The notes under the pieces are model-generated. The model was not told the origin of the DNA, made no database searches, and saw only the letters and a list, made by a program, of their open reading frames with translations. The position numbers and the translations under genes were made by a program. From positions 1-41,148 of the forward strand of contig NZ_NHSH01000067.1 of NCBI RefSeq assembly GCF_016653315.1: 41,148 nucleotides of DNA, given 5' to 3'. Shown here piece by piece: positions 5,360 to 31,080 of the stretch. How positions within the stretch are numbered: position 1 is the stretch's first letter; each line of letters starts with the position of its first letter. The stretch comes from Halochromatium roseum (GTDB lineage: Bacteria; Pseudomonadota; Gammaproteobacteria; Chromatiales; Chromatiaceae).

Positions 5360-6385
5360 TCAGTGAAACACCGCCTCCGGGGTCTCTGCGGTTAGGATGC
5401 GATCGGACCATTCCAGTAGGGTCTCGGCATCGGCCTCTTGGATCTGTTGACGTAGCCGGGCATCGGTGGGACCGAATTTGCGCTCCATCTGGCGCAGTAG
5501 CATCTCGGCTCCGCATTGGCGCTTGCCCTGCTCGCGGCCTTGCTCGATATAGCGATCAATAAACGTCTGCATGATGGGGTCTCCCGGTGAGGTCTGTTCC
5601 AACAAGCGGCGGGCGTCATCCTCCTCCACCCGTTGTGTCCCTTGGACATAGTATCGCAGCAGCGATTCCAGAATCTGCAGCGCGGTATCACGGTCGGCGA
5701 TCTGGTCGATCAAGGCGATCAACCGCTCCAGATGCTCCAGCGGCTGGTCGCTGAAGATCCAGCGTAGCGCGAGCTGCACCAAGCGGGTGAGCACATCGCC
5801 TTTGATCTCCACATCGCTGCGTGGTGAGAGATCTTGCAGCGCATAGCGGAACTGCGGCACGTAGGGCTTGAGTGCCTCCGGTAGCGGTCGGATCAGGGCG
5901 TGGAAATCGCTCGGCATCCGCCAGCGGCTCTGGCCGTGATAGAGCACCAAGGGGTAGACCGGCGGCAAGGTCTTGGCCTCGGGATGCTGCTTGCGGTAGG
6001 CATCGCCTTGCAGCGCGATGTAGCGCAGCAGTTGCAGCAAGACCCAGTAGTCGAGATGGCTCTTGTGCTCAAACAGGATGTAGACGTGGAGCGCGAGCGT
6101 CGCTGCAGCATCTTCTAGATCAACTGCGGCGGCCGGATCAGCCTGATCGGGCACGGTTGGATCAGCCTCATCGGGCACACGCCATTTCAGCCGATAGACC
6201 AGATCAGAATAGGACGCGCGCAATTCCCTGGAGACGTAGCTGTCCTTGCTGATCTCCAGACTGTCGAGATCCACCACCTCAAGCAGCTCAGCCGGCAATT
6301 GCTGGCGCAGAAAGTCCTGCGCAATCTCGCGCCGGGTGAAACTCTCGCGGAAGTAGACGTCATGCGGGTTGTTGATCTCGTCCAT
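5360..6385 (-). CDS. Rpn-family recombination-promoting nuclease / YhgA-like putative transposase
   Basis: 341 aa from the ATG at 6385 ([20 protein letters not shown]); longer readings to 6523 add low-complexity GC-rich residues with no family similarity. The core shows the family's [28 protein letters not shown] and [10 protein letters not shown] motifs of the PD-(D/E)XK fold. An EQGREQG linker and a C-terminal DUF4351-like domain ([28 protein letters not shown]) follow. Family members cleave DNA and promote RecA-independent recombination. A near-identical truncated copy lies at 2723-3465. The longer KRQCG linker replaces IEQGK in the other copy. This is the only intact Rpn gene in the window. 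Confidence 0.85.
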
Positions 6386-6424
6386 GGGCAGAACTGTACC
6401 CGGATTGGACTGTTGCGGCGAGCA

Positions 6425-6648
6425 CCCTGCCCTTGCAGCGCTTGGGCGAGGCTCAGCTCGTAGAGGCCATAGCCGGTGTCGGCATCGAGCAGGCGCAGGC
6501 CGGGCTGGGCCAGTTGGCGACAAAAGGCGTATTCCGGCTCGGGCCAGTCTTCAAGCTCGAGCAGGGTCAGGGTGGCCGGGTTGTCGAGGTCCGCCGGGAC
6601 GTTGACCTTGAGGCCGCTCTTGAGGTTGAGGGTCCAGTGGGGTTGCAC
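6425..6648 (-). pseudogene. N-terminal fragment of FkbM-like protein
   Basis: From a possible GTG at 6648 the reading VQPHWTLNLKSGLKVNVPAD, then [15 protein letters not shown] and [15 protein letters not shown], parallels the start of the intact FkbM-like gene at 31080-31736. Homology stops at about 6425, just before the Rpn gene, so the distal two thirds are missing. The upstream neighbour is a fused DUF remnant. Confidence 0.75.
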
Positions 6649-11211: not shown

Positions 11212-12173
11212 CGAAGATGACTGTTTGGCTTATTGGCGCCGGACCGATGGCGCAAGAATACGCACATGTACTGATTGCGCTAGACCATCCATTTCAGGTG
11301 ATCGGGCGAGGTGAAGCTTCTGCAGCAGCGTTTCAGCAAGCAACCAAGGTATCTGTGTGTACAAGTGGATTGGAACAGGCGCTATCGCAGAAAGAGGCCC
11401 CTGAGCAAGCGATTGTCGCGGTGGGTGTCGAACAACTCACCACCGTCGCAAGTGCTTTGATCCACGCGGGAACGCGACGCATCTTATTGGAAAAGCCAGG
11501 AGGAATAGATCTCAACGATATCGTTCAGCTGAATAATTTAGCCGAGGAATACAACGCAGAAGTGCTCATTGCTTACAATAGGCGCTTTTATGCATCGGTG
11601 CTGAAGGCACGCGAGTACATTGAGCAAGATGGTGGTCTGCTCAGCACACAATTTGAATTTACTGAGTGGGCACATCGGATCGCCCCCCTCGCCAAAGCGC
11701 CTGGGGTGAAAGAACGTTGGTTTTTAGCGAATTCTACGCATGTCATCGATCTCGCTTTTTATTTATCGGGTCAACCGAGGGACTGGCAGGCCTGGCACGC
11801 CGGAACCCTCGACTGGCACCCGGCTGCAGCACGCTTTTGCGGGGCAGGCGTGACTGAGCGTGGCGTACTCTTCGCTTATTTAGCCGACTGGCAATCAGCA
11901 GGGCGCTGGGGGCTTGAACTGCTGACACAAAAACGACGACTGATACTGAGACCAATGGAGCAACTGCAAGCAACACGACTAGGTAGCGTAAAGGTCGAAA
12001 CGATAGCACTTGACGATGTTTTCGATCAAAAATTCAAGCCTGGCCTTTATCGCCAGGTACAAACATTTCTAAAGAAAGAAAACACGGATTTTTGCACACT
12101 TTCAGACCAAGTCAAAAATGTCGCTTTATACTGTGAGATGGCGGGTTATTTCGCAGGCGCTGGCGATCGATGA
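11208..12173 (+). CDS. Gfo/Idh/MocA-family oxidoreductase
   Basis: 321 aa. VWLIGAGPMAQEYAHVLIAL is the Rossmann start, RILLEKPGGIDLNDI carries the conserved Lys of the EKP motif, and VLIAYNRRFYASVLKAREYI and STHVIDLAFYLSG are typical of the substrate domain. It overlaps the first oxidoreductase by four bases and is probably co-translated with it. The last 14 codons lie in a segment that occurs again at 18310. The gene is convergent with a PIG-L remnant whose stop follows directly. The substrate is unknown; a sugar nucleotide is likely from context. Confidence 0.82.
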   Translation: MTKMTVWLIGAGPMAQEYAHVLIALDHPFQVIGRGEASAAAFQQATKVSVCTSGLEQALSQKEAPEQAIVAVGVEQLTTVASALIHAGTRRILLEKPGGIDLNDIVQLNNLAEEYNAEVLIAYNRRFYASVLKAREYIEQDGGLLSTQFEFTEWAHRIAPLAKAPGVKERWFLANSTHVIDLAFYLSGQPRDWQAWHAGTLDWHPAAARFCGAGVTERGVLFAYLADWQSAGRWGLELLTQKRRLILRPMEQLQATRLGSVKVETIALDDVFDQKFKPGLYRQVQTFLKKENTDFCTLSDQVKNVALYCEMAGYFAGAGDR

Positions 12174-12247
12174 TCAAATCCGCTCTCGCAGTAATCTACT
12201 AAATGCTTCTGCCGCCTCAAACCCCACTTGTGCCCCTCGTACACGGG
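12132..12247 (+). repeat. Direct repeat, left copy (about 116 bp)
   Basis: This segment, from TGTGAGATGGCGGGTTATTT to TCGTACACGGG, recurs at 18310-18422 in the same orientation. By eye there are about three substitutions and one 3-base indel. It spans the last 42 bases of the second Gfo/Idh gene and the last 70 or so bases of a PIG-L deacetylase on the other strand. The two copies bracket the five-gene cassette, as expected for duplication or recombination at a shared convergent gene junction. Confidence 0.9.
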
Positions 12248-12567: not shown

Positions 12568-13719
12568 TTAGTATGCGAGGTCTTTGTTTAAGAGGGCTGC
12601 GTCCCGCAGCGTCTTTGCAAGCAGATCGGCAATACGCTCGCCGGCATGGCCGTCACCAAAAGGATTGCCGCATCCTTCAATTCGTTTTTTGATTTCCGCG
12701 TCATGCAGGATCCGGTCGATCTGATCGGCGATGGCACCCCGGGCATTCGGCGTGAAGAAGACATTCTCTGCGTGGTGCCTTTGTTTCTGACGGTTTCCGG
12801 CATTGATAACCGGCAACTTGAGAAATGGCGCTTCGAGCAGCCCGAGGCTTGAGTTGCCCACGAGCACGGAGGCGCCGCGCAACAGATTTACAAACAGGTC
12901 ATCCTCAATGTTCCTGAATAAGTGCACGCCATCGTGCTCACGGTACGATTCGATTACTTCTATAATATCACCGCACCCGGGATCTGAATTGGGATAACTC
13001 ACAAAAACATCCAGGCCCGATGTAAGTACACCCTCAAGTGTCTCGCGCATGTGCATGCCCGACTCGGAAATTTCGGAAGAGAGCGCGTGTTGAATAACCA
13101 CGGCGTAACGTTCCGGGACGGATGGAACACCGAGTCTTTCAGCCAGAGAAGCGCGGTCAATGGAGGGCGCGAGCCGCATACGGTCCAATCCCGCGTGCCC
13201 CACTCTATGTACCCGGGACTCTTCTTCTCCGGCCCGAATAAGCCTTGCCCGTGCATCCTCACTGGTTGTCAGCAACACATGGGCCAAGCGGGAAGCGGCG
13301 TGTCGCACCATGTCATCCACGTTGCCCACCACCCGGTCGCCCGCGCAATAGTGCATCGTGGGAATGTTCAAATAGGCTCCACACAGGGCCAGCATCATCG
13401 GCTCTTCCCTGTCACCCACCGCGAACAGCCAGTCAGGACGCAGCCGGTCAACGACATTGGCCAGCGCGGCCAGCTCAATGGCCGCGCCTTTCAACCGCGC
13501 CGCATCTCGATCAGAATATAGCAGGTTCTCAATGCGCTCAACGATCGTGAAGCCGTCGTCTTCAATGGTCTTCACAGTATAATTGTGCAAAGGTGACAAG
13601 TGCGCCCCGGCCACGACCAACTGAAGGTTGAGTTCGGGATGTGCGGCAATTGCGTTCAGGGCCGGCCGTTGAAGGAAGTACTCCGAACGAATTCCGCTTA
13701 ATGCCAGTACGTTAAGCAT
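12568..13719 (-). CDS. UDP-N-acetylglucosamine 2-epimerase (hydrolysing), NeuC/LegG family
   Basis: 383 aa, the usual length. SGIRSEYFLQRPALNAI, VVAGAHLSP, DWLFAVGDREEPMMLAL, GNVDDMVRHAASRLAHVLLT and VLVGNSSLGLLEAPFLKLPV are the family motifs in order. Two normally conserved spots differ: HxGGE is HYCAGD, and the usual GxRQxGR is NRQKQR. Substrate use may therefore differ from the NeuC at 19017-20627. The family hydrolyses UDP from a UDP-HexNAc derivative with C2 inversion and supplies NeuB. The start overlaps the upstream acyltransferase gene by eight bases. This is the last gene of the cassette operon. Confidence 0.85.
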   Translation of the reverse strand: MLNVLALSGIRSEYFLQRPALNAIAAHPELNLQLVVAGAHLSPLHNYTVKTIEDDGFTIVERIENLLYSDRDAARLKGAAIELAALANVVDRLRPDWLFAVGDREEPMMLALCGAYLNIPTMHYCAGDRVVGNVDDMVRHAASRLAHVLLTTSEDARARLIRAGEEESRVHRVGHAGLDRMRLAPSIDRASLAERLGVPSVPERYAVVIQHALSSEISESGMHMRETLEGVLTSGLDVFVSYPNSDPGCGDIIEVIESYREHDGVHLFRNIEDDLFVNLLRGASVLVGNSSLGLLEAPFLKLPVINAGNRQKQRHHAENVFFTPNARGAIADQIDRILHDAEIKKRIEGCGNPFGDGHAGERIADLLAKTLRDAALLNKDLAY

Positions 13720-15184
13720 CAGGTAATCCTTTCTTGTAACTGGAATCCCACGCGAAAGGATGAAAACGGATACCCTGGCGGCGAAGATAATTTCGCAGTT
13801 CCGCGCTTAAAGGTGTGGTTTCGCCGATGAATGTCATCGATTCAAACAGGAAAACACTTCCCTGGACCGGCTCCTCAACCGTTCCCTCAAGCAGCAGAAC
13901 AATGCGCTTATCGCGAAACGTCGCATCAGTTTTTTCCGTCTCCAGCAACTCAATGGTGTACGTGTCACCATCAGGTAGTCCGACGGTGAGGCTCTTCCTG
14001 TCCGCCGCAAGCTCGGTCGCGCATCCCTTGAAGGAAAGCAGCTGCGAAAAACCGTCCAGTTGATCTGCCAATATGTTCACGCGCTCTGCGGGCGCTATCT
14101 CACATGCGGCATTCTCACGAAGCACTTTGCCAGGTATACCGCCGAACAGGCAGCCGGCCGGAACGTTATCGGTGACCGTAGAATTGGAAATAACAATGGA
14201 GCCGATTCCAATCTTCGTGCCCGGCAGGATCTGACATCCCGCCCCGGCCCATGCGCGGTGTCCAATACGTACGGAACTGAAACGCGTGGAGTATCCGTCA
14301 AGTACACTCTGCCAGAAGCGGTGCGTGAAGACCATCGCTCCCGGGCTCAAGGCGGATTCGGGTTCCATGACTACTTCCCGGCATGTATTAACCATCGCGC
14401 GCGAGGCGATCAGGCATCCGTTTCCAACCAGCAGGCGAGATTCGGATGAAAGCCCGCCGGCGATATCAACCAGTACTTCCTGCCCCACGACCACGCCATC
14501 GCCGATAATAATTTCCCGGGTGATCATTTCACTTCGTTTACCGATCTTAGTATACGCTCCGATGTAAACAGCATCGGCATCAATGATGGTATCGGACCCA
14601 ATAACCGCTCCTTCTCCGATCCACAACCGTCTGGCTTTGATGGAGACGCCGGAGCCCCAACGAACCTGTTCGCCGACGACAAATCCTTGCTGACGGGCGT
14701 CCTCTTCGGAAAAGACACTGCATGCCCCCGACACATCCTGTTTGCTTAACGTCTCCCGCGCTTCAGCCACCCAGGGGAGTTCCTCACTGGGCACCCATGT
14801 CTCCTCCTCAACCGCATCAGCAGCCGTGCGCGACTTGGCGGCTTTCTTCTTTGCCAGCAGGCGCTGTTTGGCCGTCATTTTCGGGGCGTCCTGGACGGAT
14901 TCCGCAGCAGCACTCTCTTGAGCAAGATCGGCATCAAGCGGTTCGTCCGGGGATTCTGTCAGAATACACAATAACTTGCCGACATCCACCATCTCCGTCT
15001 GAGTAACAAGGATTCTGCGGACATACCCGTCCTGTTCAGCGTTCACCGAGATCGTGCTCTTGGTTGTCTCCACGGAAAACAGTTCCTGCCCTTCAGTCAC
15101 CCGATCGCCTTCCCGCACGAGGATATCACTGAGAAATACCTCGTCTTCATTTGCGTTGATGCGTGGAACTTTGACTTCGTTCAT
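13712..15184 (-). CDS. Lipoyl-domain/left-handed beta-helix acyltransferase fusion (E2-like)
   Basis: 490 aa from the ATG at 15184, with GGAG five bases upstream. Residues 1-76 are a biotinyl/lipoyl domain with Lys42 in the turn VETTKST, the position lipoylated in E2 proteins. Residues about 77-160 are an acidic, then Lys/Ala-rich linker. Residues about 165-355 are a hexapeptide-repeat left-handed beta-helix with a candidate catalytic His288 (MVFTHRF) and the family-typical FGGIPGKVLRE end. Residues 365-490 form an extra domain I do not recognise. No E2 CoA-acyltransferase (HxxxDG) domain is present. It lies directly after E1-alpha and E1-beta genes and overlaps a NeuC gene, which suggests acyl transfer from lipoyl to a sugar. 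Confidence 0.85.
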   Translation of the reverse strand: MNEVKVPRINANEDEVFLSDILVREGDRVTEGQELFSVETTKSTISVNAEQDGYVRRILVTQTEMVDVGKLLCILTESPDEPLDADLAQESAAAESVQDAPKMTAKQRLLAKKKAAKSRTAADAVEEETWVPSEELPWVAEARETLSKQDVSGACSVFSEEDARQQGFVVGEQVRWGSGVSIKARRLWIGEGAVIGSDTIIDADAVYIGAYTKIGKRSEMITREIIIGDGVVVGQEVLVDIAGGLSSESRLLVGNGCLIASRAMVNTCREVVMEPESALSPGAMVFTHRFWQSVLDGYSTRFSSVRIGHRAWAGAGCQILPGTKIGIGSIVISNSTVTDNVPAGCLFGGIPGKVLRENAACEIAPAERVNILADQLDGFSQLLSFKGCATELAADRKSLTVGLPDGDTYTIELLETEKTDATFRDKRIVLLLEGTVEEPVQGSVFLFESMTFIGETTPLSAELRNYLRRQGIRFHPFAWDSSYKKGLPDA

Positions 15185-15194
15185 GTTTACTCCA

Positions 15195-15338
15195 CTGAAG
15201 TTTCCTGATTCTGAAAACCGCAAGGAGGGCAGGCGCTTGGGGAGCGGCTTTTTGTGCAGCTTTGCGCAGACTGCAGCAAACCCCAATAAAATTGCCCCTA
15301 CCTGCCGTGCCGCCCCTCTAAAAATCAGGAAACTTTAG
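15195..15338 (+). mobile_element. MITE-like element, 144 bp, with 16-bp TIRs and 9-bp target duplication
   Basis: CTGAAGTTTCCTGATT at 15195-15210 and AATCAGGAAACTTTAG at 15323-15338 are inverted copies with one mismatch. Outside them the 9-mer TTTACTCCA occurs at 15186-15194 and again at 15339-15347, as a target-site duplication would. The interior has no coding capacity. It lies between E1-beta and the lipoyl-acyltransferase gene. The duplicated 9-mer contains, on the minus strand, the GGAG ribosome binding site of the latter gene, so translation was preserved after insertion. The mobilising transposase family is not identified. Confidence 0.82.
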
Positions 15339-15353
15339 TTTACTCCATCTTGT

Positions 15354-16355
15354 TTATCGTAAATCTGAATCAACGGTTTGAATAGCGGCGGCCACCACGT
15401 CCCTAACCTGTGGAAGAACCTCGTCTTCCATGGACCGAGCGGCCGGAATGGGAACCTCGCGGGCGGCCACTCTTACCGGAGGAGCGTCGAAACGGTACTC
15501 CGAAAGGCGGGCAATCACCTCAGCGCCCCATCCCCAGGAATATGTTCCCTCCTCGGCCACCACCATGCGCCGCGATTTCCTGAGTGACGCGCCGATTGCA
15601 TCAACCTTGAACGGTGATATTTCATGCAGAATGACAACATCACAGATCAGTTCTTCCTCTTCCCTCAGCCGGGCCGCAGCCTTTAAACAGATGGGCGTCA
15701 TCCCCCCGTAGGTAACCAGCGTGACGTCGGGTTCTTCGCCATACGACAAGGTGCAGGAAGGGAACGTGTCTTCCGATCTTGTCACCTTCATGCCCTGTAT
15801 GGACGACTCCTCTGACCAAAGCGGATGTGAGTAGAGGGTCTTGTTCTCAACAAACAGCGAAGGACCGTCGCTCAGGATCACCTGTGTCAGCAGTTCTCCG
15901 GGATCTACCAGGGGTGATACTGCGACAACATTCAGACCGGGAACCCCCATGAAAAGCCTCTCGAGAGACTGACTGTGTGTGGGACCGTAGCCTCTGCGCG
16001 CGCCCATGGGCGTCCGGACAGTCAGCGGAAGCGGAACACGCTGTCCGTACATGGCATAAATTTTGGTACCGTGGTTAATTAACTGGTCTACAATCAGTGT
16101 CGTGAAATCACCGAACATGACCTCCACTACCGGACGAAACTTCTGCAGTGCGAGGCCGATACCGACGCCGGTTATGCCGGCCTCACTGATCGGCGATGTG
16201 ATTACTCGTTCCGGATAATCGGTTGAAAGGCCGCGTGTAACCTTGAACGCGCCGCCGTAAGGATCGAGAATATCCTGACCGATAACGACCACCTCAGGTC
16301 GCTCCTTCATAACCCGATGAAAGCCTTCGTTCAGCGAATCAAGCACCCTCTTCAT
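15354..16355 (-). CDS. 2-oxoacid dehydrogenase E1 beta subunit (pyruvate dehydrogenase-like)
   Basis: 333 aa, the normal E1-beta length. VLDSLNEGFHRVMKERPEVV, VIGQDILDPYGGAFKVTRGL, VITSPISEAGITGVGIGLAL, MFGDFTTLIVDQLINHGTKI and PMGARRGYGPTHSQSLE are the family's pyrimidine-domain motifs, with the TPP-activating Glu in SEAG. The C-terminal domain (VVAEEGTYSWGWGAEVIARL) is complete. It partners the overlapping E1-alpha to decarboxylate a 2-oxo acid and load the acyl group on a lipoyl arm. The position inside a sugar-modifying cassette, with no E3 gene, argues against a housekeeping complex. The substrate is unknown. Confidence 0.9.
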   Translation of the reverse strand: MKRVLDSLNEGFHRVMKERPEVVVIGQDILDPYGGAFKVTRGLSTDYPERVITSPISEAGITGVGIGLALQKFRPVVEVMFGDFTTLIVDQLINHGTKIYAMYGQRVPLPLTVRTPMGARRGYGPTHSQSLERLFMGVPGLNVVAVSPLVDPGELLTQVILSDGPSLFVENKTLYSHPLWSEESSIQGMKVTRSEDTFPSCTLSYGEEPDVTLVTYGGMTPICLKAAARLREEEELICDVVILHEISPFKVDAIGASLRKSRRMVVAEEGTYSWGWGAEVIARLSEYRFDAPPVRVAAREVPIPAARSMEDEVLPQVRDVVAAAIQTVDSDLR

Positions 16356-17257
16356 GACAGTTCCCCATCCATGGTTGATGCGGGAGAATTTTCTGCAGCC
16401 TCCGCGGCTTTCGCTAACACATCCTCAACCCACTTTTCAGCGTTTTCAATACACGCATCACTCACACGCCGCCTCAGCAGGTAAAGCGGATCGTGCTCAC
16501 GGTGCCGGGCCAGTTCTTCTTCGGGCCGATTGTCATCGCCCTTGCTGTGGGCCGCAAGCCGGTAGGTATCGACGACCGCCCATGCCGGCTTCCGGTTAGT
16601 GCGCACATACTCAATCATCTCGGAGCACCACGGCCGCAATTGCTCAACATCGGTCGTGTCAATTTCATCGGCGTGGATACCAAACGGTTTCGCGCGATCG
16701 ACAACCGACCCCGCCACACCAAGCGCGATCGGCGTGCTTTGCGCGTAGAGGTTATTCTCGACAAAAAACAGAATCGGCAGGTTCCACAGGGCCGCCATAT
16801 TCAAAGACTCGTAAACGACACCCTCACCCAGCGCACCGTCACTGAGACACCACACCGCAATGCCGTTCTGCTTTTTCAACTTCTCGCCAAGCGCAAGCCC
16901 GCAGGCGATGGCGGCACCGCCACCGAGAACCCCGTTTGAGAAAAAGTTACCCGACTTTAAATGCTGGCTACCACCGCGTCCGCCGCAAATGCCGTTGGCG
17001 CGTCCCATAATCTCGCCCAGAAGTCCTTCCAGCGAACAGCCAAACGACAAATAGTGGCCGTGACAGCGGTGGTTGCTCATGACGAAATCGATGGCGGGAT
17101 CAAGCTGGCTGATCAGGGCAATCGCGTTGGCCTCCTGACCGATACAGGTATGGGTTGTACCGCTTACTTTGCCCTCGGTAAATAACTGCAGGATCAACTC
17201 CTCAGTCCGCCTGATAAGCAGCATATCTCGAAAGTCTGTTTCTATTTGTGATAGCAT
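16352..17257 (-). CDS. 2-oxoacid dehydrogenase E1 alpha subunit (pyruvate dehydrogenase-like)
   Basis: 301 aa. DMLLIRRTEELILQLFTEGK, THTCIGQEANAIALISQLDP, SNHRCHGHYLSFG, GICGGRGGSQHL and then VWCLSDGALGEGVVYESLN are the E1-alpha motifs; the last is the TPP-Mg site (GDG...N form). The helper phrase PILFFVENNLYAQSTPI follows. The C-terminus is shorter than in housekeeping PDH, as in acetoin/branched-chain-type two-subunit E1 enzymes. The gene overlaps E1-beta by four bases (ATGA) and is preceded by a methyltransferase gene 38 bases away, so all five cassette genes form one minus-strand operon. Confidence 0.9.
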   Translation of the reverse strand: MLSQIETDFRDMLLIRRTEELILQLFTEGKVSGTTHTCIGQEANAIALISQLDPAIDFVMSNHRCHGHYLSFGCSLEGLLGEIMGRANGICGGRGGSQHLKSGNFFSNGVLGGGAAIACGLALGEKLKKQNGIAVWCLSDGALGEGVVYESLNMAALWNLPILFFVENNLYAQSTPIALGVAGSVVDRAKPFGIHADEIDTTDVEQLRPWCSEMIEYVRTNRKPAWAVVDTYRLAAHSKGDDNRPEEELARHREHDPLYLLRRRVSDACIENAEKWVEDVLAKAAEAAENSPASTMDGELS

Positions 17258-17295
17258 AACGTTTCCGCCGGCTCAATTATGTCTTTAGCAATCCG

Positions 17296-17994
17296 TCAAT
17301 CGCTTACCGGTGTAAGGACAAGGTGATAGCGCGCGCTAGAAGCGCCATTTATTACGTCCGCGCGTCGAATAAGCGCGCATTCCTCAAGCGTGAATAAAAC
17401 ATCAATAAGCTTCTGTATCTTCGCAAAGTTGAAATAAGATTGGACCGTGTTCTTCTCGTGAGCGGTGGAAACGACTTCCTCCTCCGCGTATTCACGGGCA
17501 TGCGCGCTGTCATCACCGGATACAAGATCACAGTAAAATTTACCTCCCGGCTTCATGACCCGCTGAAGGTCTTGTACGGCCGACCGGGCGATGTCAAAGT
17601 GCATACTGTCCAGCACGCCGTGGCTGACAACAAAATCGAAGAATTGATCCGGCCAGGGAAGCTCGCGAATATCCCCCTGCACGATGCGCTCCGCCGCATC
17701 GGGCATCTGCTCCTGCATCAACTTCCGCGCCACGTCAAGCGCGACGCTGGACAAGTCTATGCCGTAGGCCTCTGCACCCATGTCATGCGCGAAGGCGACA
17801 TGGCGCCCGATGCCGCACCCAAGGTCGAGAATTTTCGGAGGTGGGGTAAAATCCACGCGATCAATAAAAGTATTGACTCCTGAACGCTTTCTAATGTGCC
17901 GGGCGAAAAAGCGGATGACCTCCTCGTGCGGGTAAAAAACAAAATTATCCCCTTTGTCATAGGATTGGTTCCAAGCTGATTCCTGGTTTTCCAT
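17296..17994 (-). CDS. Class I SAM-dependent methyltransferase
   Basis: 232 aa from the ATG at 17994, where AGAGGA lies nine bases upstream. Reading further upstream to 18219 adds GC-rich sequence of different character with no family similarity. PPKILDLGCGIGRHVAFAHD (residues about 53-72) is motif I, then AYGIDLSSVALDVARKL and VQGDIRELPWPDQFFDFVVS give motifs II and III. The C-terminal part carries HLVLTP. Substrate is unknown; as the first gene of the cassette it may methylate the sugar product or the acyl group. An O- or N-methyltransferase cannot be told apart from sequence. Confidence 0.85.
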   Translation of the reverse strand: MENQESAWNQSYDKGDNFVFYPHEEVIRFFARHIRKRSGVNTFIDRVDFTPPPKILDLGCGIGRHVAFAHDMGAEAYGIDLSSVALDVARKLMQEQMPDAAERIVQGDIRELPWPDQFFDFVVSHGVLDSMHFDIARSAVQDLQRVMKPGGKFYCDLVSGDDSAHAREYAEEEVVSTAHEKNTVQSYFNFAKIQKLIDVLFTLEECALIRRADVINGASSARYHLVLTPVSD

Positions 17995-18309: not shown

Positions 18310-18422
18310 TGTGAGATGGCGGGTTATTTCGCAGGCGGCGGCGATCGATGATCAAATCCGCTCTCGCAGCAATCTAAATGCTTCTGCCGCCTCAAACCCC
18401 ACTTGTGCCCCTCGTACACGGG
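18310..18422 (+). repeat. Direct repeat, right copy (about 113 bp)
   Basis: Same orientation as 12132-12247, with a 3-base deletion (CTA-AATGC for CTACTAAATGC) and about three substitutions. This copy covers an orphan end of a Gfo/Idh gene (GAGATGGCGGGTTATTTCGC) and the real C-terminal codons of the intact PIG-L gene. The left copy covers the real end of Gfo/Idh and a relic PIG-L end. Each copy therefore has one live and one dead gene end. Confidence 0.9.
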
Positions 18423-19020
18423 CGAGTGCATGCAGCGCCTCATCACTCCGTGGAAAGGGAAAGGCGCCCATTTCTGAGGCATACACACGCATCAGTGCTC
18501 TCTTCTTCTCCAGATAAGCACTGATATCGACAAACACCGTCGGCTGAAAGGCGCGGAACGGGTCAAGCCCGGCGTCCGTCTCCGAGAGCGTCTCATAGGT
18601 CAACACGCGCTGAACACTTGGATACCGAAACCACTTGGTGCAAGCACTGGCCGCCTCGAAAGTACTCCGATGATCGCTGTGCGCGTCCCCCGGATGCGGC
18701 AGCAGAACCTCCTCTGGCTGGAAGTCCCTGACTACCTCCGATACACGCGCCACTAGGGTGCTCATCGGCACCTGGTCGAGTTCAGCGGTTGGGAATCCAA
18801 GCGAGTAGTGATGCTGCGTCGCGACCCCTAGCCCTTCACGCACCCGCTCGATTTCTCCCGCCCGCTCATCGATCCGCTCAGGACTCCAGCCGCCTTGTTC
18901 CGTGATCGCGGTCATCAGCAGCCAGCCGACCGTGCCGCCTTCGGCACTGCGTCGCAGCAGGGTACCGCCACAGCCGAGCAGTTCATCGTCGGGGTGGGGG
19001 GCAATGACCAGTGTTTTCAC
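18352..19020 (-). CDS. PIG-L/LmbE family N-deacetylase
   Basis: 222 aa from GTG at 19020. VIAPHPDDELLGCGGTLLRR is the signature AHPDDE zinc-binding motif, and HPGDAHSDHRSTFEAA supplies the second metal-binding His-x-x-His (HSDHR). The C-terminus ALARVRGAQVGFEAAEAF is typical. The family removes N-acetyl groups from amino sugars. It overlaps the stop of the NeuC-formyltransferase fusion by four bases (GTGA), so deacetylation and the fused domain are probably linked, for example exchanging N-acetyl for N-formyl on the sugar. A truncated paralogue is at 12174-12445. Confidence 0.9.
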   Translation of the reverse strand: MKTLVIAPHPDDELLGCGGTLLRRSAEGGTVGWLLMTAITEQGGWSPERIDERAGEIERVREGLGVATQHHYSLGFPTAELDQVPMSTLVARVSEVVRDFQPEEVLLPHPGDAHSDHRSTFEAASACTKWFRYPSVQRVLTYETLSETDAGLDPFRAFQPTVFVDISAYLEKKRALMRVYASEMGAFPFPRSDEALHALARVRGAQVGFEAAEAFRLLRERI

Positions 19021-20627
19021 AAATAGCTCCCAACGTCCAAGGTGACCTTGGGCGCTGTTTCGAGCAAACGGATGCCACCGATCCCTGCCTTGATTAGGAC
19101 GCCGCGCTCGTCCATCGCCAGAATCTTACCCGGCTCCAGATTCATGGCCACATTGGGCTCAACCTCAGTTCGCCAGACCTTGATCTTTTCTCCCGAATGA
19201 TCAAAGTGCACCCCCACATACGGCCGTGTGAGACCTCGGACGAGATTGTGGATAGACACGGCCGCCATGCGCCAATCGATCCGGCCATCCGCGGCTCCGC
19301 GCTTGCGCCAGGCATTGGCGAAACGTCCATCTTGGGGTTGACGGTAGAAGCGGCTATTTGCCAGGCGCGGGACGAAATCGCGAATCTGCTCCAGTGCGAC
19401 CACAGTGACACGCTCATAGAGCCGACTAGCATCATCTTCGGGGGCAATGGGCACAGGCACTTGCGATAGGATATCGCCCGAGTCCGCGCCTTCATTCTTC
19501 AGCAGATCATCCAGCGGCCGTTGCTCCAAAATTTTGACAATGGCATCGCTCGCGCCACCGCTACCGCAGGGATTCTCGACCCTCGTCAGTTGGGCTTGGA
19601 ACTCTGCGGAAAAAAGCCGATCAAGGGCAGCACCAATAGAAACTCGATCTGGCTCGCAGTCGATCACACTAGCTGCACGTAGGCGTCCACGTTGGCGGTC
19701 ACCGATATTGATTGTGCCCTTTTTGAAGCTCGGCACTTCTAGTAGACCGCTCGACGAATTACCCACTACGCCATCGACATGCTGAATGCAGGACAGATAG
19801 CGGAGTTGTCCCAACGAGGTATAGGCCCGCGCCTGCGGATGACGCGCGCAGAAGTCTTCGATCTGGCGGAATAGCACGCGTCCTTCGGTATCGGCATTGG
19901 GCATGGTGAAGATCAAGCCCGTGTCTGGCTGTTCTGCCAGTGCCGCAAGCAGTTCGTCCATCTGCGCGGCGCTGGTGTTGTGCTCCAGCGTCACCGGATG
20001 AAAGGTGATCAGTAGATTGCGGGGAGCGAGCTTAAAATCGAGGGCGGCTTCTAGCTCATCACGCGTCAAGAGCTTGAGGCGCAGTATGTTATCGATGCCG
20101 AGCCCGCCGACGCGAAAGACCCGCTCCGGCTGCTCGCCGAATTGAATCACCCGACGCTGGTACTCTTCGGCTGCGACGAAGTGCAGGTGTGACATCTTGG
20201 TCAGGCTGTGCCGGATCGGTTCATCGATAAGACCTTCTGTAGCCTCGCCCCCATGCAGATGAGCAACGGGGATGCGCGCGATCATCGCCGCTGCGACTGC
20301 GGAGAAGATCTCGCAGCGATCACCCAGTACCAGCATGAGGTCTGGCTGTAAGTCCGCCAGTGCGTCAGCGAAGCCGATCAGCCCAAGGCCCATGGATTTA
20401 GTGACACCGACTGCTGTACCCGAACTCAGCAGCATCTCGACCTTGCGATCGACCTGGAAGCCATCGGCCTCGATCGCATCGACGGTGAGCCCAAACTCCG
20501 GCGAGAGGTGCATGCCGGTGGCGATGAGTTGCAGCTCCAGCAGGGGTGACTGGCGAATGCCTTCCATGACCCAGCGCAAGAGGCCGTATTCAGCGCGAGT
20601 GCCAGTGACGACACAGATTGTCTTCAC
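19017..20627 (-). CDS. NeuC/LegG epimerase fused to the C-terminal half of a sugar formyltransferase
   Basis: 536 aa. Residues 1-377 are a complete hydrolysing UDP-GlcNAc 2-epimerase (VVTGTRAEYGLLRWVMEGI, MLVLGDRCEIFSA, HLHGGEATEGLIDEPIRHS, VVGNSSSGLLEVPSFKKG, NIGDRQRGR). At about residue 378 (near 19496) the sequence changes without a stop to EGADSGDILSQVPVPI, residues 379-536, which resemble the end of the catalytic domain and the C-terminal domain of sugar N-formyltransferases (ADGRIDWRMAAVSIHNLVR, RPYVGVHFDHSGEKIKVW, EPGKIL). The N-terminal formyl-folate part with Asn-x-His is absent. Start is a GTG overlapping neuB (GTGA). Normal NeuC is about 380 aa, so the tail is extra. Confidence 0.87.
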   Translation of the reverse strand: MKTICVVTGTRAEYGLLRWVMEGIRQSPLLELQLIATGMHLSPEFGLTVDAIEADGFQVDRKVEMLLSSGTAVGVTKSMGLGLIGFADALADLQPDLMLVLGDRCEIFSAVAAAMIARIPVAHLHGGEATEGLIDEPIRHSLTKMSHLHFVAAEEYQRRVIQFGEQPERVFRVGGLGIDNILRLKLLTRDELEAALDFKLAPRNLLITFHPVTLEHNTSAAQMDELLAALAEQPDTGLIFTMPNADTEGRVLFRQIEDFCARHPQARAYTSLGQLRYLSCIQHVDGVVGNSSSGLLEVPSFKKGTINIGDRQRGRLRAASVIDCEPDRVSIGAALDRLFSAEFQAQLTRVENPCGSGGASDAIVKILEQRPLDDLLKNEGADSGDILSQVPVPIAPEDDASRLYERVTVVALEQIRDFVPRLANSRFYRQPQDGRFANAWRKRGAADGRIDWRMAAVSIHNLVRGLTRPYVGVHFDHSGEKIKVWRTEVEPNVAMNLEPGKILAMDERGVLIKAGIGGIRLLETAPKVTLDVGSYL

Positions 20628-21625
20628 AGCACGATCAACTCATCAGCCTCAAAATTGCGTCTAGCCATCCGCCCCATCACCTCATCCCAGCGCATCGGCG
20701 AGAGGCCGGTGCCAGGGCGCTTGGCGGTGACATTCTCCGGTGTGAACGGCTCTCCTGCGCAGATGGGTCGGGCGGCAACCAGAGACTTGCGGGCGATGGG
20801 CTTATTCTTGGCCTCGCTTGGACTCGGGCGCTTGATACCATCGCCAAGCGCCTGCTCGATGTTGCGGATAGCACGAACCATGGCAGCGAACTCGTCCGGC
20901 TCTAGGCTGGCCTTGTGGTCGGGGCCGGGCAGCGTGCGATCAAGCGTCAGATGCTTTTCGATGACGCTAGCGCCCAAGGCCACAGCGGCGATGGCCACCT
21001 CGATACCGGGCGTGTGGTCGGAGTAGCCCACGGCAACGCCGAAGGCTTGGCCGATGGTCACCATGGCGCGCAGGTTCACGTCCGCCATAGGCGTGGGATA
21101 TTCGGTATTGCAGTGCAGCACGGTGACGCAGGTGTGCGGGGTGCCGGCGGCTTCGAGCGCCTCAAGCGCGGCCTCAATCTCGCCCAGGGTTGACATGCCG
21201 GTGGAAAGGATGATCGGTTTGCCGAAGGTGCCGACATGACGAAGATATGGCAGATTGGTGATCTCGCCAGAGGGGATCTTAAAGCGCTCGGCGCCGAGCG
21301 AGGCCAGATAGTCCAAGCTCTGGATATCGAAGCCGGTGGAGAAGAAGCCGATACCGCGCGCATGGCAGTGAGTGATCAAGGTCTGGTGCATCTCGGCGCT
21401 GAGTTCCAGTTGGCGCAGCATGTCGAATTGGGATTGCGCCTGATCGGTGGTGCGGGTTTGGTAATCGGCTTTGGGCGCGCTCTGGGTCGCAAGACGTTCG
21501 GCGCTGAAGGTCTGAAACTTAACCAGATCGGCGCCAACCTCGGCGGCGACGTCAATCAGCCGTTTGGCGAGATCAAGGTCGCCGTTATGGTTGACACCTG
21601 CTTCAGCGATGATGAGTACACTCAC
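20624..21625 (-). CDS. legI: N-acetylneuraminate/legionaminate synthase (NeuB/LegI family)
   Basis: 333 aa from GTG at 21625, which overlaps the stop of the upstream formyltransferase gene; longer readings to 21667 are out of family. VLIIAEAGVNHNGDLDLAKR, DLVKFQTFSAERL, GIGFFSTGFDIQSLDYLASL, FKIPSGEITNLPYL, ILSTGMSTLGEIEAAL, GYSDHTPG and VIEKHLTLDRTLPGPDHKAS are the NeuB TIM-barrel motifs in order. The C-terminal RKSLVAARPICAGEPFTPEN is the antifreeze/SAF domain. The enzyme condenses PEP with a 6-deoxy hexosamine or ManNAc to a nonulosonic acid. Legionaminate synthase is likely given LegB and LegC in the same operon. Confidence 0.9.
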   Translation of the reverse strand: MSVLIIAEAGVNHNGDLDLAKRLIDVAAEVGADLVKFQTFSAERLATQSAPKADYQTRTTDQAQSQFDMLRQLELSAEMHQTLITHCHARGIGFFSTGFDIQSLDYLASLGAERFKIPSGEITNLPYLRHVGTFGKPIILSTGMSTLGEIEAALEALEAAGTPHTCVTVLHCNTEYPTPMADVNLRAMVTIGQAFGVAVGYSDHTPGIEVAIAAVALGASVIEKHLTLDRTLPGPDHKASLEPDEFAAMVRAIRNIEQALGDGIKRPSPSEAKNKPIARKSLVAARPICAGEPFTPENVTAKRPGTGLSPMRWDEVMGRMARRNFEADELIVL

Positions 21626-22506
21626 GTCAAGCGATCCCCAACTTTGAGCTTGAAATCCGCGTCCCAATCGATAACGCGAACGTAAGAGTCAGCGGTTTTG
21701 ACCAAAAACCCTGCCGCATCCTTGGCAAGCACAGCACCAGGGATGCCGATGTAAGTTGGCGCATCGGAAAGATAATCGACACTGTTGATACGGATTTCCT
21801 CGTTACCGCGAAAGCAACGGGCAGCAGGTCCAGGTGGACAAATGGCGCGAACAAAATTGAAAACCCGGCGCGAGGGCTGTTGCCAGTTCAGCCGTTCGTC
21901 ACCTTGCCCGCGCGCAGTGCAATAGAAGCCGCGCGGGTGGATCTCGGCCTGAGGTCGCCGCATGGCCGTCCCGGCCAAGATATCACCGATTGCCTGATCC
22001 AGCAGATCGGCACAGCCAACATAGGCACGATCCAAGAGGGTGCTGTAATCGTCGGCATCCGTGATCGGAAAGCATTGCTGCCGAATAATATCGCCAGTAT
22101 CGACTCCTGTGTCGACATAGTGAACCGTGATACCAAACTCCTTTTCGTCGTTAATCAGTGCCCAATTGAGGATATTTCGCCCACGATAGAACGGCAGTTT
22201 ACCAGCATGACAGTTGATCGTGCCAAGGACTGGCCTTTCAATCGTTGACTTTCTAAATATCTGATTGAAAGACATCGAGACAAATAACTCACTCCCATAT
22301 TGCTCAACGCTTTGCAAAAAATCAGCGCTATTAATGTTTGGGTGAAACAAAAAAGGAATACTATTTTTCTCTGCTTTTGCTTTCAGCATTTGATCCGGAT
22401 GATCGTAGCGCGCACAAATAAAAGCGATCTTCAGTCTTTTTTCCTCAAGCAACTTATCGAGTGCTCTATGAGACCAAGGGCCATCTGCAAAGTATCCGAT
22501 AATCAC
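21622..22506 (-). CDS. Sugar N-formyltransferase (formyl-THF dependent)
   Basis: 294 aa from GTG at 22506. TINCHAGKLPFYRGRNILNW (Asn98-x-His100) with HYVDTGVDTGDII gives the Asn, His and Asp expected of the formyltransferase triad, so the catalytic half is complete. The C-terminal part (residues about 190-294, RLNWQQPSRRVFNFVRAI) is like the Formyl_trans_C domain but divergent. The family transfers formyl from 10-formyl-THF to the amino group of a nucleotide sugar, as in ArnA, VioF or WbkC. It is more AT-rich than the genes after it. It lies where a LegH/NeuD acyltransferase would be, right after the neuD stub. Confidence 0.87.
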   Translation of the reverse strand: MIIGYFADGPWSHRALDKLLEEKRLKIAFICARYDHPDQMLKAKAEKNSIPFLFHPNINSADFLQSVEQYGSELFVSMSFNQIFRKSTIERPVLGTINCHAGKLPFYRGRNILNWALINDEKEFGITVHYVDTGVDTGDIIRQQCFPITDADDYSTLLDRAYVGCADLLDQAIGDILAGTAMRRPQAEIHPRGFYCTARGQGDERLNWQQPSRRVFNFVRAICPPGPAARCFRGNEEIRINSVDYLSDAPTYIGIPGAVLAKDAAGFLVKTADSYVRVIDWDADFKLKVGDRLT

Positions 22507-28641: not shown

Positions 28642-31080
28642 TTAGTTCACCAGCTTTATTTTTGCCATTTCGCTTAAGCTGGCATCGGTTGTAGTAATTA
28701 TGAATTTTTTGCTGAGCAGTTCTATAATCTCTAGATCTGCTGTAACATGCGCATCTAAACCAAAAATTTTTTCCATCTGATTTTTTTGCGACAAATCCCC
28801 AAGCCTCGTCGGATGAATATATCTCGTGTCATCCTTTAGTCCACTGCCTATCCCGGCCAATCGATATTCTGCATTTTTATTGAATAATACAATGGCAACA
28901 ATTAAAGAAAAAACACCAGAAGAAGGCCGCAGAGGTAAAGGCCAATCATAAGCCTTATTTATTCCTCGCTCATGACAAAATTTAAAATCAATGCAGTGCT
29001 TCAAAAGCTGATATTGATACTGGTAATCGATACTAAAAAATATATCATGAAAAAAGGGGGTATCTAATCCAACCACATCCCCTATCATCTCTCTTCTTTC
29101 TGAGAAACTTAATATCGAATAAAAAATATTTTTTTCCATTTCACCTTTCTGCGCGACTCTAAACTGTCCGCTTTTTCCTTCAAACAAACCTACTTTATCT
29201 CCCAGCGTTACTATTTCATCTGCCCCCCCTTCTGCAAGCTGTGTTAAGCTCTCAATTCCAATGGGACCCCATACTCCAATTTTGTATAAATAGTTTGAAA
29301 TCTCATTGGAATAATACTTAATGCTAGAATTTGCACCAAAAACCAAATCCCATTTTTTTGGAATACAAGCATCGGGCTTCGATCCTAAAACCAATACTTT
29401 TTTGTGCTCACCACTCCCCCCAACCTTAGTATTAATTCTTTCAACTAGACCGGTTTTTTTGAAAAAATGCTCTACTGAAAATCCGCTTTTTTTCAATTTA
29501 AAGGTATTGTGCAGTATTTTTTTAGCCTCAAGTGTTTTTCCTTTGGCATGTAAACCATTAACCCGCACCAATAACTTATCTATATTGTTGCTCGTGCCTG
29601 TTCTGCCATCGAGGCTTTCTCTCTTTCTTTTTTTTACCAGTGGTTTATGCTGAGCAGATTCATCAAATTGAATCGTTTTGACCAAACTTGCTGGTCTTCC
29701 AGCAACGATTGTATTCGGCGCGACATCTTTTGTAACCAAACTACCGGCGGCTACAACTGCATTTTCACCAATATGCACTGGACCCAGTACAGTGACGTCG
29801 GACCCTAGCCAAACCCCTTTTTCTAAGGTTATGTCCCGACCGCCTGAGGGAACAGCTTTCAACCTTTCTATTCCTTTTTTCCTATAGTCATGCGTCCCTG
29901 TCAACAGCATGCAACGATGCCCGAAAAAACAGTTTTCTTTTATTGTGACATGTCCTGAGCGAGTGTTAATCAGTAAATCATTAACGGGGATTGTTATATT
30001 CTCAAGATGCAGGCGACTACGATCGCCCCACACACGCACTTGCCTGAGCTCTGCATCCGCTATAAATGGCATTAATATCTTCGCAAATTCTTGAATTTCA
30101 TTTTTACTTGCTGTTCGCAGCAATGACAATAGTTTGCCTTCATTTTCTTTAGCACTGCTATTTCTGGCTTTATCCAGCAAGTGCGCATGCGGTTTTTTGG
30201 ATTGAGATCCTGCATGAATGGCAGATGCTTTTTTTTCATGATTAGCGACAGGTATTTGCTGGGAACGCTGATCAGCCGATTTCAATTTCTGTTGTTCTAG
30301 AGACGGCATTGCAGTCTGCTTCTCTCCAAGTCTTTTCCAATGTTCAGTATTTTTCCCCTCCACCAGCAACCGACTCCCCGGCTTAATCGTCACCTTTTTC
30401 TGCAGCCGTAGCGCAGCCAAAGCCAACATTCGTTCGCTTTCAATCTCAGCATTGGGTAACTTATGGCGCTGAGCCAGACGCGCCAGTTCGGCTTGCGGTT
30501 GATTGTGGCGGCGCTCGACGTTGAGTTGAATGTCGGTTTCGATCAGCATGCCGTTTAGCCAAGCGTTGAGGTCGTGAGGCTGAACATGGAGGCCCTGCTC
30601 TGCTTGCGGCGGGCAGCTGTCGAACCGGGCGCAACTTGGCAAAAAGGGCCGTTCGCGCAGCGTTGCGGCCAGATCTTGCGGGAGTTCGCGGGGCTGCTGC
30701 TGGGGTGGGCGCTCGCCTTCAGACGGGGTTGCCTGCTCGCGCTGCTCAAGCAATTCAACACACAGTTGCCGAGCCGCGCGAAGCTCGCCAAACGCACTCC
30801 AAACACGCAGGCGCACCAACTGGGTGGCAAGATGCTGATCTCCGGCGATGGCTAACTCGACGAGCCGGGCGCGGCTGGTGCAGAGCTGCTGATAGCGCTC
30901 GGTCAGCGGGCGCTCGGGGTCGAAGGCCGCGAGTGCGGCATCCAGTGCGGCGCTGTACACTTCGGGTAGCTCGGCGGCGGCTTCGCGCCAGCCGGCCATC
31001 AGCACGGTGGCAAAGGGATAGCGGCTGAGTGCTTGGGACCAGAGAGGGATGGCGGGCATGGCGGGTGTCGTGTGGTACAT
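28642..31080 (-). CDS. Chimeric protein: helical N-domain, beta-helix acyltransferase, sialyltransferase-like C-domain
   Basis: 812 aa from ATG at 31080 (TGATG overlap with the upstream gene). Residues 1-255 are helical and GC-rich in DNA. Residues about 256-330 are a Lys/Ser/Gln-rich linker. Residues about 335-470 are a left-handed beta-helix acetyltransferase-like domain (CMLLTGTHDYR with candidate His397, WLGSDVTVLGPVHIGENAVV, AGRPASLVK). Residues about 560-812 begin KVLVLGSKPDACIPKKWDLV and contain RPSSGVFSLIVAIV and GIGSGLKDD, similar in layout to GT42 sialyltransferase folds, though I see no certain catalytic residue. DNA from about 30320 on is strongly AT-rich. It could transfer an activated nonulosonic acid to flagellin. 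Confidence 0.65.
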   Translation of the reverse strand: MYHTTPAMPAIPLWSQALSRYPFATVLMAGWREAAAELPEVYSAALDAALAAFDPERPLTERYQQLCTSRARLVELAIAGDQHLATQLVRLRVWSAFGELRAARQLCVELLEQREQATPSEGERPPQQQPRELPQDLAATLRERPFLPSCARFDSCPPQAEQGLHVQPHDLNAWLNGMLIETDIQLNVERRHNQPQAELARLAQRHKLPNAEIESERMLALAALRLQKKVTIKPGSRLLVEGKNTEHWKRLGEKQTAMPSLEQQKLKSADQRSQQIPVANHEKKASAIHAGSQSKKPHAHLLDKARNSSAKENEGKLLSLLRTASKNEIQEFAKILMPFIADAELRQVRVWGDRSRLHLENITIPVNDLLINTRSGHVTIKENCFFGHRCMLLTGTHDYRKKGIERLKAVPSGGRDITLEKGVWLGSDVTVLGPVHIGENAVVAAGSLVTKDVAPNTIVAGRPASLVKTIQFDESAQHKPLVKKRKRESLDGRTGTSNNIDKLLVRVNGLHAKGKTLEAKKILHNTFKLKKSGFSVEHFFKKTGLVERINTKVGGSGEHKKVLVLGSKPDACIPKKWDLVFGANSSIKYYSNEISNYLYKIGVWGPIGIESLTQLAEGGADEIVTLGDKVGLFEGKSGQFRVAQKGEMEKNIFYSILSFSERREMIGDVVGLDTPFFHDIFFSIDYQYQYQLLKHCIDFKFCHERGINKAYDWPLPLRPSSGVFSLIVAIVLFNKNAEYRLAGIGSGLKDDTRYIHPTRLGDLSQKNQMEKIFGLDAHVTADLEIIELLSKKFIITTTDASLSEMAKIKLVN

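Follow-up and report, generated by a model that had tools for sequence, protein, structure and literature searches.

Several bacteria appear, judging by their genes, to decorate surface sugars by means of a pyruvate dehydrogenase (PDH)-like E1 and a sugar acyltransferase with a fused lipoyl arm. This reading starts from a stretch of 41,148 nucleotides of Halochromatium roseum (RefSeq assembly GCF_016653315.1, contig NZ_NHSH01000067.1; hereafter the window), in which five minus-strand genes at 12568-17994 form a cassette that encodes both E1 subunits next to a protein joining a lipoyl domain to a left-handed beta-helix (LbH) acyltransferase. We consider it likely that the cassette represents a lipoyl-dependent sugar-acylation module, in which E1 would load the arm and the LbH domain would transfer the acyl group to an amino sugar. 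E1/lipoyl acyl loading of carrier proteins is known from QncN/QncL-type systems; the sugar acyltransferase on the acceptor side is most likely what is new. Four features read from the DNA carry the argument: the gene content, its recurrence in other genomes, the subfamily of the E1 and a direct repeat that flanks the cassette.

The cassette and its recurrence in other genomes

The five genes lie in the span given in a first-pass annotation made from the letters of the window, and their families were confirmed by Pfam and NCBIfam:

17296-17994, minus strand: class I S-adenosylmethionine (SAM)-dependent methyltransferase (Methyltransf_11, 1.4e-20)
16352-17257, minus strand: E1-alpha (E1_dh, 2.7e-48)
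15354-16355, minus strand: E1-beta of a divergent subfamily (Transket_pyr, 3.1e-28; Transketolase_C, 2.9e-22)
15969-15995, minus strand: subfamily signature RGYGPTHSQ around the catalytic His loop of E1-beta (row alignment and DNA pattern)
13712-15184, minus strand: fusion of lipoyl domain, linker, LbH acyltransferase and C-terminal domain, 490 residues (Biotin_lipoyl, 1.7e-13; Hexapep, 1.3e-6)
14960-15184, minus strand: lipoyl domain, about residues 1-75, K42 codon at 15059-15061 (PF00364; best solved-structure match a PDH E2 chain, 3.3e-21)
14114-14707, minus strand: LbH acyltransferase domain, about residues 160-357, H288 codon at 14321-14323 (family matches, alignments)
13715-14113, minus strand: C-terminal domain, about residues 358-490 (alignments A1 and A2)
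12568-13719, minus strand: second NeuC-type hydrolysing 2-epimerase (TIGR03568, NeuC_NnaA, 327 bits, cut-off 235.9)

In order of transcription the genes are spaced by 38, -4, 169 and -8 nt. As previously annotated, a Pfam scan detected neither an E2 catalytic domain (2-oxoacid_dh, PF00198) nor an E3 in the five genes, and the same is true of the other 25 main open reading frames (ORFs) of the window; no acyl carrier protein gene was seen among the five genes either. The fusion starts at 15184 with the N-terminus MNEVKV, and its two key residues, K42 of the lipoyl domain (within VETTK) and H288 of the LbH domain (within FTHRFW), are found in the translation where they had been placed.

At least eight lipoyl-LbH proteins are present in eight genomes of one phylum, namely that of the window and seven labelled G582, G656, G472, G574, G686, G413 and G003, and all eight are encoded beside an E1 of one subfamily. 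The pairing of E1 and lipoyl-LbH recurs in seven other genomes, of which G656, G413 and G686 have a listed completeness of 100%; for this reason chance neighbours or misassembly were rejected. The first-pass annotation had counted the pairing with NeuC, along with the fusion itself, as the strongest novelty; the NeuC pairing is not central, as NeuB/NeuC are seen in three of the eight loci and the constant element is E1 adjoining lipoyl-LbH.

The fusions of the window, G582 and G003 were found from the fusion side, with E1 being no search condition, and the five others via E1. An E1-beta search at 1e-57 led to 12 places in 11 of 398 genomes: six (window, G582, G656, G472, G574, G686) have an adjoining lipoyl-LbH gene, the other six a lipoyl protein carrying an E2 core. 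In G413, the lipoyl-LbH gene was located at its E1 locus by a DNA pattern of the E1 signature, which matched two of 369 class genomes (window and G413; backwards control, one). A search at a limit of 1e-12 missed G413 and a two-fusion profile missed G472 and G574, all three being NeuD-like fusions; the latter profile, blind to this kind, matched one of 48 Magnetococcia. An LbH profile matched 111 of 398 genomes at 1e-15, and over LbH plus C-terminal domain only the window organism and G582. Five lipoyl-side loci among the matches listed (L011, L018, L022, L025, L028) were scanned, and more fusions may exist. On plasmids, none of three fusion queries is covered to 80% by a record; the same holds for the window fusion in phages, and viral contigs yielded no relative in a scan with patterns from one sequence; in a genome-contig scan with two patterns, both from the N-terminus, only the G582 contig matched. 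A Rhodobacteraceae plasmid match has NeuB/NeuC and a short LbH-like match without an annotated E1, and a phage-labelled E1 match that we examined proved to be an acetoin operon.

Three of the loci read as follows. In G582 (Magnetococcales bacterium HA3dbin3) the order is aminotransferase, NeuC, E1-alpha, E1-beta, lipoyl-LbH, polysaccharide deacetylase, NeuB, NeuD-like and PtmE-like. G003, of the same genus as the window organism and matched by the lipoyl part of the fusion without reference to E1, has a DegT-type aminotransferase, E1-alpha, E1-beta, lipoyl-LbH and a TylF-type methyltransferase, of which the first four overlap by about 4 bases; nucleotidyltransferase-like, dehydratase-like and GT41-like genes lie nearby, and the LbH domain is NeuD-like, unlike that of the window. 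The G656 locus (L079) runs from a cytidine monophosphate (CMP)-transferase (162.7 bits, under 205.7) through NeuB (389.3, just under 399.65), NeuC, E3 (TIGR01350, 447 bits over 408.8), deacetylase, E1-alpha-beta and lipoyl-LbH to an ABC transporter and a glycerophosphotransferase-like gene. The lack of an E3 noted earlier therefore holds for the window cassette and is not general; for an E3 in a sugar locus there is no easy explanation other than turnover of a lipoyl arm at that place. The 19-kb stretch of G656 with NeuC, NeuB and CMP transferase contains no LegB/LegC-like gene by blast. Its fusion occurs in one of 148 genomes of its genus.

A likely source of a free amine, be it an aminotransferase or a deacetylase, is found in six of the eight loci, which favours N-acylation: a DegT-family aminotransferase adjoins the pair in G472 and G413 and E1-alpha in G003, and deacetylases of two unrelated families occur in the window, G582 and G656 loci. 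Neither was seen in G686, and for G574 the contig is just 3 kb long.

Two side observations concern the E1 loci. In L080, L081 and L082 (G516, G527, G520) the same E1 subfamily is followed by a lipoyl protein with an E2 core and then by one more gene, which Pfam identifies as a methyltransferase in L080; this arrangement makes up a sister module. About 7 kb from the G413 E1, a gene of the transaldolase/fructose-6-phosphate aldolase family (L092:18227-18961) may serve ketose supply or be unrelated.

The fusion protein and its E1 partner

Within the fusion, T287-H288 is invariant in alignments A1 (5 rows) and A2 (2 rows), and the hexapeptide repeats are recognised by PF00132 (1.3e-6, 28.3 bits over 27). 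Two kinds of LbH domain are combined with the lipoyl domain: a WbbJ/WcaF-like one with the extra C-terminal domain (window, G582) and a NeuD-like one (the other six). The C-terminal domain is common to the window and G582 fusions and to stand-alone Streptomyces acyltransferases. The latter lie on plasmids, and three of the four fetched (L029, L030, L031) adjoin a PIG-L gene within a conserved cluster that also has GNAT, AMP-binding and TrpD-like genes and is likely to make an uncharacterised metabolite.

The lipoyl-type attachment pattern, in what we take to be its usual form, matches the window fusion at 26-55 and is kept in seven of the eight fusions, all but that of G686. A biotin domain is not favoured, the biotin-type pattern being unmatched and the best structure match being a PDH E2 chain. 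The stand-alone homologues from Streptomyces might suggest that the lipoyl domain is a relic, a scaffold or unmodified, with LbH working alone on acyl-coenzyme A (CoA) and E1 being unrelated; the retention of the attachment pattern, the recurring adjacency of E1 and the E3 in G656 make this very unlikely.

None of the eight fusions contains the E2 catalytic domain according to Pfam. We built a profile of the linker from six fusions, with the segments between lipoyl and LbH domains picked by eye; built from any five of them, it finds the sixth at 1.6e-6 to 3.1e-3. Of 12 E2 proteins, the profile finds ten at E ≤0.01 and the other two as well at 0.1, and its match precedes the core in all eight E2 proteins with a mapped core. 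Among 307 control ORFs, three reach 0.01, all of them E2 proteins in a longer reading frame, and nine reach 0.1, of which six are not E2. Six fusions therefore look like E2s whose core has been exchanged, and by this profile their linkers may contain a peripheral subunit-binding domain; the window fusion stands outside this claim.

Most LbH hexapeptide transferases use acyl-CoA, and so do most of the relatives named by the family and structure matches. With AceF and SucB present in the host, one may thus envisage a relay in which the acyl group made by E1 and the arm passes to CoA by way of a host E2 and reaches the LbH domain as acyl-CoA, the fusion merely providing proximity. We regard this as unlikely: no E2 catalytic domain occurs in the eight fusions or in the neighbours scanned (for the seven other loci, part of the neighbours), and the same E1 subfamily pairs with a lipoyl protein of either E2 core or LbH, which an exchange of cores fits better. 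An LbH enzyme taking its acyl group from a carrier protein rather than CoA is known in LpxD, and LpxD is in the family-match list of the window fusion. From the sequences, CoA-free transfer is plausible.

The E1 subfamily has motifs of its own. The motif RGYG[PA]THSQ occurs in all 16 subfamily E1-beta rows and none of ten other rows, and also in G003; in E1-alpha, HSK[GS]DD is found in all ten subfamily rows put in and none of six others. The histidine of the loop presumably corresponds to His128 of human PDH; as a speculation, the arginine near it might suit a phosphorylated donor. In E1-beta trees of 25, 26 and 27 rows, the subfamily forms one side of a branch (100/100, 100/99 and 100/100). 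The largest tree separates a 17-row subfamily clade from ten rows of PDH, branched-chain keto acid dehydrogenase (BCKDH) and similar enzymes (100/100), where the root is arbitrary, the ten "canonical" rows are so labelled by us and no Qnc/Nap sequences are among the rows. Branching inside the subfamily is poorly resolved, and the partners of lipoyl-LbH proteins form no single group. The clade includes the renieramycin E1 RenH, whose partner RenI consists of a lipoyl domain and an E2 core (2-oxoacid_dh, 9.5e-37), and a Streptomyces E1 that has an acyl carrier protein (ACP) next to it and belongs to an ACP-E1-E1-E2 set in a peptide-synthetase cluster.

An ordinary PDH E1 operon was rejected, as the host AceE-like, AceF and E3 genes lie elsewhere and the cassette E1 belongs to the other clade. 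The host genome encodes an AceE-like gene (a cut fragment, 677 bits), AceF (697 over 552), SucB (544 over 379), E3 (509.5 over 408.8) and LipA (416.5 over 310.25), and its sole other E1-beta match is weak (4.3e-5). The cassette E1 is therefore not the housekeeping enzyme, and with LipA and E3 the means for lipoate synthesis and re-oxidation of the arm exist.

Both window E1 subunits have human PDH E1 as their best match among solved structures, and the same transfer from arm to LbH could accordingly deliver plain acetyl from pyruvate, so that an ordinary glycan would result and only the route would be new. The position of the E1 with RenH and the Streptomyces ACP-linked enzyme, outside the PDH/BCKDH clade, speaks against this, acetyl-CoA would already suffice for acetylation, and the deacetylases, present in three loci, point to a replacement of acetyl; we find this version distinctly improbable. 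E1 and transketolase also have domains in common, and Rif15 offers a precedent for ketol transfer in specialised metabolism, so that E1 might move a two-carbon ketol unit directly to the sugar with the arm as an accessory. Such a reaction would leave the recurring lipoyl-LbH partner and the E3 unexplained, and we give it hardly any credence.

The flanking repeat and the surrounding locus

The cassette lies between two convergent genes, Gfo/Idh and PIG-L, and is enclosed by a direct repeat:

12132-12247, no strand: left copy, Gfo/Idh 3' end plus remnant of the PIG-L 3' end (alignment to right copy)
18310-18422, no strand: right copy, remnant of the Gfo/Idh 3' end plus PIG-L 3' end (alignment to left copy)
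18352-19020, minus strand: PIG-L family deacetylase, which lies beyond the inserted unit and may supply the free amine (PF02585, 4.9e-22)

The copies, 113-116 bp long, align over 113 positions with three mismatches and one 3-nt gap. Because the repeat flanks all five genes, these are probably one entering unit; in the simplest reading, the cassette of ~6 kb probably entered the Gfo/Idh-PIG-L junction in a single event, in which case deacetylase, NeuB and formyltransferase were already present. A search of 54 other genomes found relatives of the PIG-L gene in five; every one of these has nonulosonic acid (NulO)-type genes as neighbours, and none has an E1 (blast against window and G582 genes). 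A cassette-free empty site was not found among these 54 genomes, whose closest PIG-L genes are 37-42% identical.

The window holds a legionaminic/sialic-type flagellar glycan locus: NeuB_NnaB (503.6 over 399.65), the two NeuC genes (464 and 327 over 235.9), LegB (520 over 475) and LegC (523 over 420) all exceed their cut-offs. Around the cassette lie the PIG-L deacetylase, a NeuC with a formyltransferase C-terminal domain, NeuB, a formyltransferase, LegC and LegB, further a CMP-transferase-like gene, a PtmE-like CBS/nucleotidyltransferase, a radical SAM/SPASM gene, a large hexapeptide protein, a GT41-type glycosyltransferase and flagellin. The NeuC joined to the formyltransferase C-terminal domain (19017-20627, 536 aa) is adjoined by the separate formyltransferase (21622-22506) and the PIG-L gene; this may be a branch of the locus for N-formylation that is older. 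The hexapeptide-repeat protein (28642-31080, 812 aa) adjoins the radical SAM/SPASM gene and sits in the 2-kb block of lowest GC content in the window (0.39). On the left side, transposase genes of ISAZ013 type and YhgA-like type are found at 395-1195 and 5360-6523.

Proposed mechanism, known systems and meaning

From this evidence we infer the catalytic steps, the independence from CoA, the identity of the acyl group and the acceptor. The E1-alpha/E1-beta pair with thiamine diphosphate would split a 2-oxo acid or a ketose phosphate, and the unit kept by E1 would go, by reductive acylation, to the lipoyl group at K42. From there the LbH domain of the same protein, in which H288 would act as the base, would transfer the acyl group to an amino-sugar NulO precursor, more probably to its amine than to a hydroxyl, the amine being provided by an aminotransferase or freed by a deacetylase such as the PIG-L enzyme of the window. 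The dedicated NeuC would pass the acylated product toward NeuB, and the methyltransferase may cap the acyl group or the sugar. Finally, E3 would re-oxidise the arm: the host enzyme in the window organism, the locus-encoded one in G656. That the swinging arm may hand its acyl group to the fused acyltransferase, as first proposed from the window, is strengthened by the recurrence with two LbH kinds, the G656 E3 and the E1 clade.

By analogy, it is probable that the module works like E1/lipoyl acyl loading of the Qnc type, a sugar acyltransferase having taken over the acceptor side. Qnc glycolyl loading was reportedly described by Peng et al. in 2012, as cited by PMC6335953 and PMC5384830; NapB/NapD are presumably further E1 plus lipoyl acyltransferase kin of this type, and we take RenH/RenI to be kin as well. 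According to PMC6335953, a peptide receives a C2 glycolyl unit through QncN/QncL/QncM, and the proposed donor for SclQ1-4 is a ketose phosphate. The shared traits are the E1 clade with RenH, the lipoyl carrier and an acceptor other than CoA (PMC6335953), whereas the lipoyl protein of the Qnc/Scl type contains a catalytic acyltransferase domain and has an acyl carrier protein as acceptor, and that of the cassette has an LbH core. Because a ketose phosphate is proposed for the Qnc/Scl relatives (PMC6335953), the donor need not be the 2-oxo acid assumed in the first-pass annotation. Glycolyl is the acyl group we favour by this analogy, at a little under an even chance. The full CoA-independent route, from ketose-phosphate-derived glycolyl via the lipoyl arm to N-glycolyl sugars and N-glycolyl nonulosonic acids, is rather doubtful as a whole; under it, G656, with no LegB/LegC-like gene in its stretch by blast, might produce an acid of N-glycolylneuraminic type with no need of a CMAH-like hydroxylase.

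With 2-oxo acid dehydrogenase complexes the module shares the E1 domains, the lipoyl domain and the E3 in G656, and perhaps a subunit-binding-like linker in six of eight fusions, but the fusion has no 2-oxoacid_dh domain, the E1 stands outside the canonical clade and the genes lie in glycan loci; because the E2 core is missing, the cassette is not filed as such a complex. NeuD/PglD/VioB and WbbJ/WcaF-type acyltransferases likewise have LbH repeats, a candidate catalytic His and glycan loci, whereas the fusions add an N-terminal lipoyl domain and E1 and score below curated cut-offs. For pepteridine of Photorhabdus, acyl transfer from alpha-keto acids is proposed: its E1 and E2-nonribosomal peptide synthetase fusion resemble the cassette in pairing E1 with a fused E2-like protein without an E3 in the pathway, but the acyl group goes via a thiolation and a condensation domain to a pteridine, not via LbH to a sugar (PMC5384830).

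In PMC4875605, 'lipoylation' of flagellar glycans refers to fatty-acid genes; a term search of PMC7371886 on NulO clusters of Vibrionaceae gave neither 'lipoyl' nor 'thiamine', and passages of PMC9268379 and PMC3694923 added nothing on the module. Our searches returned no paper joining lipoyl with nonulosonic or with left-handed beta-helix, nor one joining flagellin glycosylation, nonulosonic and pyruvate dehydrogenase; no description of an E1 plus lipoyl-LbH module was recognised among the matches listed, subscription papers lying mostly outside the search.

Several points weigh against the proposed module. Its case stands on sequence comparison, and five of the eight loci came to light through E1. 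By the repeat structure, the window PIG-L gene lies outside the inserted unit, and the window cassette has no E3 of its own. In none of the eight fusions does Pfam E3_binding detect a subunit-binding domain, and the linker profile with its eye-picked segments is weak in G003 (0.068) and leaves the window unmatched even at 10. The lipoyl part of G413 is recognised by the pattern and a sub-threshold GCV_H match. The AlphaFold prediction of the window fusion is of low confidence (mean predicted local distance difference test score, pLDDT, 43); the weak model shows beta repeats, with ten-residue blocks of 171-290 at pLDDT 52-78. The window LbH domain matches O-acetyltransferase-type families, all far below cut-off, so that the acceptor may be a hydroxyl. 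The glycolyl idea is drawn from kinship to RenH, whose chemistry is itself carried over from Qnc/Nap work.

Each step of the mechanism is open to in vitro assay with three or four proteins, and an RGYG[PA]THSQ E1 adjoining lipoyl-LbH would serve as a genomic marker for further cases. If the module works as proposed, the swinging-arm logic of central metabolism would have been re-used for surface sugars, with the E2 core exchanged for a sugar acyltransferase. Glycan acylation would then have a thioester donor besides CoA and carrier proteins, and unusual N-acyl groups would be predicted on flagellar and capsular sugars.

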